A stretch of 64,000 bases of DNA, taken from contig NZ_SMNT01000004.1 in NCBI RefSeq assembly GCF_004348265.1, positions 1-64,000 on the forward strand. The letters run 5' to 3'. The notes beneath the pieces are model-generated. The model saw nothing but the letters and a program-made list of their open reading frames with translations. It was not told the origin of the DNA and searched no databases. Every line of letters starts with the position of its first letter. Position 1 is the stretch's first letter. Below, piece after piece: positions 10,495 to 12,350 of this stretch. This DNA comes from Methylobacterium segetis. GTDB lineage: Bacteria > Pseudomonadota > Alphaproteobacteria > Rhizobiales > Beijerinckiaceae. The translations under genes and the position numbers were made by a program.

Positions 10495-10584
10495 TGGCGG
10501 AGGGAGCGGGATTCGAACCCGCGATACCGTTTCCGGTATACACACTTTCCAGGCGTGCGCCTTCAACCACTCGGCCACCCCTCC
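10495..10584 (-). tRNA. tRNA-Ser (anticodon GGA)
   Basis: A 90-base class II tRNA. The 7-bp acceptor stem (GGAGGGG with a final G-U pair) closes on the 3' side, followed by discriminator G and an encoded CCA. The T-arm GGTTCGAATCC is standard, the variable arm is long as expected for serine, and the anticodon loop reads CTGGAAA, giving GGA, which decodes UCC and UCU. Confidence 0.95.
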
Positions 10585-11151: not shown

Positions 11152-11406
11152 ATGCCGCGCTATGCTTTCACCGTCATCATCGATACCGACGCGCCGGCGG
11201 AGCCGTATATCCGCAGCCTCGACGATGCGGATGCCGCCTGGGAGGCTGCGCGTGCGATGATCGTCGACCTGATGACGGCGAGCGCGGATCCGCGCCTCCT
11301 CTCGGCCATCATGGTCGTGACCGACGAGGCCGACGAGATTGTCTTCGAATTTCCGTTCTCGGAGGCGCTCAATCTGCCGGCGGGGGGAACCGGTCCTGTC
11401 CATTAG
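11152..11406 (+). CDS. DUF6894-like small protein
   Basis: An 84-residue protein. It has the pattern of a family common in Methylobacterium and rhizobia: MPRYxF start, a beta-strand pair, a D/A-rich helix (LDDADAAWEAARAMIVDLM), then strands ending VTDEADEIVFEFPFSEAL. The role is unknown. The ATG at 11152 fits the family start; the frame extends 24 codons upstream without similarity. Confidence 0.65.
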   Translation: MPRYAFTVIIDTDAPAEPYIRSLDDADAAWEAARAMIVDLMTASADPRLLSAIMVVTDEADEIVFEFPFSEALNLPAGGTGPVH

Positions 11407-11434
11407 TCGGCTGCGTCGGAGGCTGGAAGCGGGC

Positions 11435-11467
11435 AGAGAAAAGGCCCGACGGCGATGCCGGCGGGCC
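11435..11467 (-). terminator. Rho-independent terminator of the 28-codon unit
   Basis: On the minus strand GGCCCG(C)CGGC, an ATC loop and GCCG(T)CGGGCC form a long stem with one mismatch, followed by TTTTCT. It ends transcripts coming leftward from the small ORF at 11661. The DUF6894-like gene reads toward it from the other side, where no U-tract follows. Confidence 0.7.
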
Positions 11468-11574
11468 CTGGCAGGGTCCACGCTCACGGGTTCAAGGGGT
11501 TCCTGACGGATCCCGGCGCCGGCCCCGCGACACGTTCCGGTCGCGGCGGGCGCCGTCTTCCCTCCCGAGAGCCA

Positions 11575-11661
11575 CTATCCCTGTCGCAGATGGTCCGGCG
11601 GAGTGTCCTGCTCACCGTCAGCGGTGCGCGCCGTGCGGGAGCCAGAGGCGTGAGCTTGCAT
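11575..11661 (-). CDS. 28-codon ORF with a near-ideal ribosome binding site
   Basis: Encodes MQAHASGSRTARTADGEQD and nine more residues, ending HLRQG. It is hydrophilic, with no membrane segment and no known family. TAAGGAGGT (11668-11676) sits six bases before the ATG, one of the best ribosome sites in the window. A plausible promoter lies upstream and a terminator downstream, so it would be a separate transcript of about 300 bases. It may be a peptide gene, or an RNA regulator carrying a translated leader. The coding call rests on the ribosome site and not on similarity. Confidence 0.5.
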   Translation of the reverse strand: MQAHASGSRTARTADGEQDTPPDHLRQG

Positions 11662-11739
11662 GGGCAACCTCCTTACATCTGCGAGTGAGCGGCGGTTCCC
11701 GGCAATTCCTGGGAGGAGCGGACCCGTCGCGCAAGGTCG

Positions 11740-11769
11740 ATGGTAGGCCGGGCGTGCGGAAGCTGACAA
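11740..11769 (-). promoter_or_regulatory. Candidate sigma-70 promoter of the 28-codon unit
   Basis: On the minus strand TTGTCA, 18 bases, TACCAT. This gives 5 of 6 and 4 of 6 matches to the standard boxes. Transcription would start near 11732, about 70 bases before the ATG at 11661. Confidence 0.45.
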
Positions 11770-11917
11770 GACCTTCTGAAGCTCGGCAGAAGTCTTTTTC
11801 TCACCGGCAAAGGACGGGTTCGAGACATGCGGACGGGCGCCCCGCCGCGCGGGCGCGCCCTGGCCTCACAAGGGGTTCAGGACCTCGCGAGACGGCCGAA
11901 CGGCCGCCGCGAGCGGG

Positions 11918-12100
11918 TCAGGAGATCATGTCGAGCCTGGCCGTCTCGACCCCGCCGGAGCGAATCGAGTCGGGCAGTGCCGAATAGTCGCGATAGCCGG
12001 CCTCGCGGGCCATCGCGTCGAGGGCGGTCTGCTCGTCGTCGGCCGATCCCGTCCACAGGATCGCGCCGCTGGTCTTCTGTCGGATCTGGAAGATGCTCAT
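11918..12100 (-). CDS. Small hypothetical protein (60 residues)
   Basis: A 60-residue soluble protein beginning MSIFQIRQKTSGAILWTGSA and continuing with a regular acidic helix (DDEQTALDAMAREAGYRDYSALPD). GAGG lies about six bases before the ATG at 12100. Amino-acid composition is balanced, unlike shadow frames here, which are rich in Arg and Ala. No family was recognised. It is the first gene on the minus strand opposite the RND efflux operon, with a 250-base divergent gap. Confidence 0.65.
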   Translation of the reverse strand: MSIFQIRQKTSGAILWTGSADDEQTALDAMAREAGYRDYSALPDSIRSGGVETARLDMIS

Positions 12101-12350
12101 CGAGCGCCTCGTGCGTCCCGGCCGGCACGGCCTGGATGTTGACGAAGTGGTAACGAGTTTCGGCGTCTCTGGTTGCTTCGGACGGCGATCCGTGCCGCGC
12201 GCACGTGACGCCACACCGGCTCGAATCCTCGCCGGATGGTCGTGTATGATACGCGCCATCAAAACGCCGGCCTGAGCGGCGACAGACCGGCCGCGGCCCC
12301 GCATGCGGTGCCGAACGATTGATTCCGCCGTACCTGCACTGGGTGGTTCG

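Follow-up and report, generated by a model that had tools for sequence, protein, structure and literature searches.

A minus-strand unit with the parts of a small gene

Positions 11769-11439 on the minus strand of the 64,000-nucleotide stretch of Methylobacterium segetis DNA analyzed here (the window) hold a self-contained unit composed of promoter-like sites, the ribosome site TAAGGAGGT, a 28-codon open reading frame (ORF) and a terminator. Its features, including the strands of two helices (P1 and P2) described below, are:

11740 to 11769, minus strand: sigma-70-type promoter-like sequence TTGTCA-18-TACCAT (-35 at 11769-11764, -10 at 11745-11740)
11667 to 11675, minus strand: ribosome site TAAGGAGGT, by sequence match
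11575 to 11661, minus strand: 28-codon ORF, MQAHASGSRTARTADGEQDTPPDHLRQG and a stop (ATG at 11661, TAG at 11577-11575), supported by family alignment and codon test
11596 to 11601, minus strand: invariant diproline codons 21-22, here PPD; candidate EF-P-dependent pause
11579 to 11583, minus strand: 5' strand of P1, CAGGG, within ORF codons 27-28 (RNA-pattern match 11583-11471)
11565 to 11572, minus strand: 5' strand of P2, immediately 3' of the stop codon (arm-pairing test)
11482 to 11489, minus strand: 3' strand of P2 (arm-pairing test)
11471 to 11481, minus strand: near-invariant 3' motif GTGGACCCTGC, in which CCCTG at 11476-11472 is the 3' strand of P1
about 11439 to 11469, minus strand: predicted intrinsic terminator, a G+C-rich hairpin followed by TTTT (sequence signal)

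This layout agrees with a preliminary description of the locus, which had placed here a TTGTCA-18-TACCAT promoter-like site (coordinates and spacing confirmed at 11769-11740), a ribosome site ahead of an ATG and 28 codons (spacing and codon count are right, from ATG 11661 to TAG 11575) and a long stem with TTTT (found as the hairpin at about 11469-11439). TTGTCA-N18-TACCAT is the sole promoter-like site between 10700 and 12500 (1 found versus a mean of 0.1 in shuffles). The description had also held that the ribosome site exceeds chance. This stands for TAAGGAGGT itself, which occurs once in the window with 0.02 expected, but not for the looser pattern: AAGGAGG-N6-ATG is found once in the window without mismatch and three times when one mismatch is allowed, no more than chance. 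If transcribed, the unit would yield an RNA of about 290 nt, and the predicted peptide is 28 residues long and mostly hydrophilic.

The unit's neighbors are a convergent small ORF at about 11152-11406 (plus strand) and a small ORF at about 11918-12100 (minus strand). The latter, which encodes 60 aa (MSIFQIRQKTSGAILWTG...) and lies 5' of the unit, has a clear relative adjoining the unit of another genome (G033, locus L151) and so is probably a genuine small gene. Directly behind the unit's promoter, a plus-strand terminator-like hairpin with TTTTT (11773-11806) is kept in the two closest relatives and may end an antisense or neighboring transcript. A tRNA gene also lies near the unit (10498-10584, minus strand; Rfam tRNA, 56.4 bits).

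Distribution in Methylobacterium and Methylorubrum

The unit is present in 82 of 111 Methylobacterium/Methylorubrum species genomes, in up to three copies, and no detectable unit was found in the other 29. This count derives from a protein-alignment search (79/111), from which two chance matches (G110, G096) were subtracted and to which four genomes were added by an RNA pattern (G103, G115, G123, G131) and one by the sequence model R1 (G112). The RNA pattern, CAGGGATNGNGG followed after 64-94 nt by GTGGNCCCTGC, matched 67 of the 111 genus genomes, and its reversed control gave no matches. At E up to 1, R1 produced matches in all 30 genus genomes then lacking the unit; G112 scored 46.5 bits and its locus was inspected, and the 29 weaker matches (at most 22 bits) were counted as genomes without the unit. 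In an initial DNA search, 18 of 61 genomes gave a match; 17 belong to the genus, and the genus matches, once aligned, carried the same ORF. A scan of genome contigs returned seven loci, every one from Methylobacterium or Methylorubrum; M. zatmanii and M. populi are among the carriers. Searches of plasmids with two units and of phages with one unit gave no matches.

Beyond the genus, we found no credible match in the 397 order genomes and the 219 and 248 family genomes searched. Protein alignment against the 397 genomes of the order gave six matches, none outside the genus, and the RNA pattern against 248 family genomes gave nine, all within it. R1 matched 34 of 219 family genomes at E up to 0.01, 8 inside the genus and 26 outside; 22 of the 26 loci were inspected and showed no CAGGGAT near the match and no GTGGNCCCTGC on the matched strand, and we regard them as chance matches, with four further weak ones (G549, G612, G657, G670) lying outside the inspected set. 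A DNA match in a genome of another family (G055, E 9e-4) covers 47 bases of the terminator end, and its locus (L018) has no such ORF; it too was set aside as chance.

Several genomes hold two or three copies, often in tandem. G106, for example, has three copies 423 nt apart (G106:C1:1895889-1896918), and nearby duplicates occur at G132:C1:200024 and 208617.

Codon-level selection on the ORF

Substitution patterns show that the ORF is under codon-level selection. For codons 2-25 in 41 disjoint nearest pairs, pS was 0.179 and pN 0.053 in frame (pN/pS about 0.3), as against ratios of 1.9 and 1.4 in the other two frames, and differences at codon positions 1, 2 and 3 numbered 47, 52 and 141. All 641 pairs of moderate divergence gave 0.42 in frame versus 1.9 and 1.5 out of frame. 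The preliminary description had proposed looking for codon-level conservation among relatives, and it is found there: about 0.3 in frame versus 1.4-1.9 out of frame.

An ATG with a ribosome site stands exactly 78 or 75 nt before CAGGG in 92 of 92 distinct RNA-anchored units, a count that imposed no ORF, yet most of its loci had been fetched via ORF or DNA similarity. GGAG or GAGG precedes the ATG in all 92. Membership in this set, and likewise in that of the P2 test below, required CAGGG[AG]T and GTGGNCCCTGC. A clean subset consists of five units found by the RNA pattern alone (L162-L166), and the ORF is present in 5/5. Thus the ATG and ribosome site, whose loss from close relatives would have counted against the preliminary description, are retained. 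Codon selection and the kept SD and ATG together argue that the ORF is translated.

Sixteen aligned peptides share five invariant residues (M1, P21, P22, Q27 and G28) and the core D-x-DQDTPP. By eye, none of the 16 contains a membrane-spanning segment of sufficient length, a trait of type I toxins; the longest hydrophobic run is about five residues, in the MRYAVVL subgroup. An in-frame stop interrupts the ORF at four places in two peptide subgroups (L025, L040, L106 and the first copy in L046). Each cuts the ORF at codon 24, directly after PPN, PPN, PPH and PPD, respectively, and L106 has also lost the normal stop.

These data could be accommodated by a plain small-protein gene that acts through its peptide and has a 3' structure that merely protects the mRNA or aids termination. 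Codon-level selection, the conserved core and the unit's own promoter-like site and terminator all fit such a gene. Three features do not: the end of the coding sequence and the stop codon are fixed at the nucleotide level, with a rare Gly codon; CAGGG is kept in 4/4 units whose ORF ends early; and the 3' motif varies less than the first 12 peptide residues. We therefore hold this explanation to be rather doubtful, although it is the strongest of the alternatives considered here.

The end of the ORF as an RNA element

Of the 90 units whose ORF has 28 codons, all carry CAG at codon 27, 86 carry GGA at codon 28 (the remaining 4 carry GGG) and 89 end in TAG; these units were picked by CA[AG]GGN-stop, which permits CAA and all four Gly codons. 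GGA accounts for 6 of 251 Gly codons over seven ORFs of the window. By contrast, the D17 codon is divided between GAC (47) and GAT (39). Four units form a 27-codon subgroup, in which the stop is TGA rather than TAG.

In P1, CAGGG pairs with the CCCUG inside the near-invariant GUGGMCCCUGC, which lies just 5' of the terminator, about 85 nt past the stop in most units and about 40 nt past it in one subgroup. We assembled a broader set of 94 units, each with CA[AG]GGN, either a stop or TGG, an SD, and an ATG placed 75, 78 or 81 nt upstream. Here GTGGNCCCTGC is exact in 86. Six of the other eight differ in GTGG, one (L051) forms P1 via a G-U pair, and the last is truncated at the end of its contig. 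In G112, the variant GTGGAGCCTGC disrupts one pair of P1. None of the 81 aligned rows shows a change in P1, but these rows were preselected to have the motif in exact form at a spacing of 80 nt or more, and hence to have both P1 strands. Run on a MAFFT alignment, RNAalifold found P1 alone, with a covariation term of 0, because alignment gaps shift the P2 arms out of register; P1 itself never covaries.

P2 joins the bases directly after UAGNG to those directly before GUGG. We tested it in Python with each arm anchored on its invariant neighbor. Over 44 distinct duplexes, 87.0% of positions were paired, compared with 65.0 +/- 2.2% after strand shuffling (maximum 75.0; 0/5000). Restricting the set to 19 duplexes unique in both arms gave 84.2% versus 61.6 +/- 3.4% (maximum 76.7; 0/5000). 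Because the shuffle ignores the tree, we relied instead on collapsing to distinct duplexes and on sliding the register; registers slid from the one chosen, which was picked by eye from the very sequences tested, were 40-57% paired. At pair p10-q5, all four Watson-Crick types occur among 63 distinct arm pairs (CG 22, AT 16, GC 8, TA 6). P1 and P2 are separated by a conserved internal loop, AUAGNGG facing GUGGM, which contains the stop codon. A CCC 5' of the P2 3' arm (alignment columns 101-103) is also nearly invariant. Taken together, these patterns point to a conserved RNA-level element beyond the needs of the peptide.

Every part of the unit, considered alone, is a consensus match and no evidence of function, which would fit strings of promoter, SD and terminator type that came together by chance. 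Occurrence in 82 of 111 genomes, codon selection and a covarying helix refute such an origin, and we give it practically no weight.

Across 81 units, the mean predicted probability of P1 was 0.50 for the whole RNA (above 0.5 in 44/81) and 0.56 with the ORF masked (above 0.5 in 48/81), compared with 0.16 in controls with a shuffled middle (n=105). In the unit of the window itself, P1 falls from 0.87 to 0.59 once the ORF is masked, contrary to simple gating.

The conserved RNA elements also raise the possibility of a structured RNA that acts in trans through the C-rich CCC or GUGGMCCCUGC, with translation tuning its stability and the peptide idle. The near-invariant CCC, the presence of two or three copies in several genomes, and the sRNA-like promoter and terminator are in keeping with this. 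However, a pN/pS of about 0.3 over codons 2-25 would hardly arise unless selection acted on the peptide, if only while it is nascent, and the 11-nt 3' motif has no shared trans site: in six genomes, the motif or its complement was no commoner elsewhere than a reversed control, and no second locus carrying either was common to the six. A fixed 11-nt trans seed, neither enriched nor shared, is consequently unsupported. We consider an RNA with an idle peptide unlikely.

Promoters, terminators and flanking genes

The argument for autonomy is drawn from sequence signals, namely the promoter-like site in the window and a terminator-like hairpin, which 62 of 65 units have under loose criteria; a shared promoter motif was found in just 24 of the 65. 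That motif, CTTGnn-N17-19-C[TA]Annn within 130 nt 5' of the ATG, compares with 10 occurrences in 650 shuffled stretches, and the 41 units without it may use other promoters.

Several units of the MSNHG subgroup (L122-L143) have, in place of the CTTG-type promoter, GGGAAC-N16/17-CATT about 50-75 nt before the ATG. We take this sequence to resemble the EcfG general stress promoter, and the subgroup may be stress-controlled. Upstream of the ATG at L104, a perfect 14-base palindrome, GTGAGCCGGCTCAC, precedes the promoter-like site. Halves resembling GCCGGCTCATTG are seen again in other subgroups, and this may be a regulator site.

For the 65 units with enough flanking sequence, the first confident downstream ORF, as called by our own ORF caller, was convergent in 45, on the same strand in 9 and absent in 11. 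Flanking genes also vary by subgroup: by our own reading of their translations, RND pump genes lie near units of the window's type, and the MSNHG type has rplQ and a response regulator nearby. Both observations bear on a leader peptide with an attenuator, in which ribosome stalling would control a downstream gene. The unit has the outline of an attenuator, with a short ORF, a structured stop region and a terminator. Because downstream genes are mostly convergent, we conclude that it is not a leader, and we rate attenuation as highly improbable. Of the three options in the preliminary description (peptide, leader, and RNA regulator with a translated region), the leader falls away on these counts, and the last is best supported because codon selection and conserved RNA structure share one unit.

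A diproline ahead of the RNA domain

Codons 21-22 encode Pro-Pro in 92/92 units, at a constant distance from P1 that places the diproline 12 nt 5' of the helix. The next residue is N or D in 45 units each, G in one and S in another, such that 90 of 92 units encode PPN or PPD. The P21 codon is CCA in 65 of 90 units; CCA is used 3/162 times in ORFs of the window. From a ribosome footprint of the size we assume, a P site at codon 22 would put the mRNA entry near codon 26-27.

The available portions of an E. coli ribosome profiling study list PPD and PPN solely among pausing PPX sequences, and state that most PPX motifs need no EF-P, strong pauses being those observed without it (PMC4140641).

A model of translation-gated folding

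We propose that the unit is a real, autonomous, translated small-RNA gene whose product is a dual-function RNA, probably regulatory, with folding gated by its own translation. We rank this reading first because the peptide and RNA layers are conserved together at fixed spacing, and assign it a probability of roughly 0.45. Genome comparison supports the ORF, codon selection, P2 covariation, P1 invariance, the terminator and conservation in the genus; we infer that the unit is transcribed, that the ribosome pauses, that the RNA switches and that it has targets in trans.

According to this model, the final codons and the stop codon would double as one strand of an RNA domain made up of P1, the loop and P2. 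A ribosome on the ORF would pause at the invariant diproline (PPN/PPD), with its mRNA entry at the foot of P1, leaving P1 and P2 able to form. A ribosome running on to the stop codon would open both helices and free the 3' motif. The two forms of the RNA, clasped and open, would then have different stabilities or pair differently with target mRNAs. We speculate, with considerable doubt, that a diproline pause 12 nt before the clasp makes the RNA a sensor of elongation, responsive to EF-P or to the supply of proline-tRNA. If so, the unit would sense ribosome speed as a trans-acting RNA rather than as a leader.

Relation to known systems

The dual-function RNA VcdRP of Vibrio cholerae has, as described in the available text of its report, the same outline as is predicted for the Methylobacterium unit: a promoter of its own, an ORF of 29 aa, a C-rich pairing region that is conserved, and a Rho-independent terminator, with both parts conserved across the species compared by its authors (PMC8672173). 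In the same text, however, the VcdP stop codon is not described as part of a helix, and an early stop in vcdP left target repression unchanged (PMC8672173).

A similar coupling is found in another alphaproteobacterium, Rhodobacter sphaeroides, where CIN1 combines the small-protein gene ccaF1 and the CcsR sRNAs with one terminator. CcaF1, in the sections available, is a DUF1127 protein of 71 aa (PMC10253847); the three Methylobacterium peptides scanned gave no Pfam family, DUF1127 included. In the Sinorhizobium duf1127 uORF attenuator, also alphaproteobacterial, translation of a short ORF likewise controls access to an RNA element, but the uORF, as presented in the portion of the report available, controls a downstream gene (PMC12218461), and the Methylobacterium unit usually lacks one on the same strand. 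Coupling of transcription and translation through EF-P and diproline offers a further likeness, in that proline stalling alters downstream transcription termination; as portrayed in the part of that work available, the effect is a general one on mRNAs and not the property of a dedicated small gene (PMC5021804).

Three peptides of the family had no match in Pfam or NCBIfam. Rfam 15 yielded nothing but a tRNA above the gathering threshold in the window, one sub-threshold match at E up to 5 within 11300-12300, outside the unit, and no match at 16 loci of the unit. The open-licence literature searched contained no description of the unit and no occurrence of the name 'Methylobacterium-1 RNA'.

Significance

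A gene this small escapes annotation easily, and this one is without a family model in Rfam, Pfam or NCBIfam. Methylorubrum extorquens is named among organisms worth study in addition to E. coli and B. subtilis in the accessible text of a 2022 review of sRNAs beyond model organisms (PMC9029176). The unit is kept in about three-quarters of the sampled species of a methylotroph genus. With selection on the peptide and an RNA helix that includes the coding end, it would provide a compact, testable case of translation controlling the structure of a small RNA.
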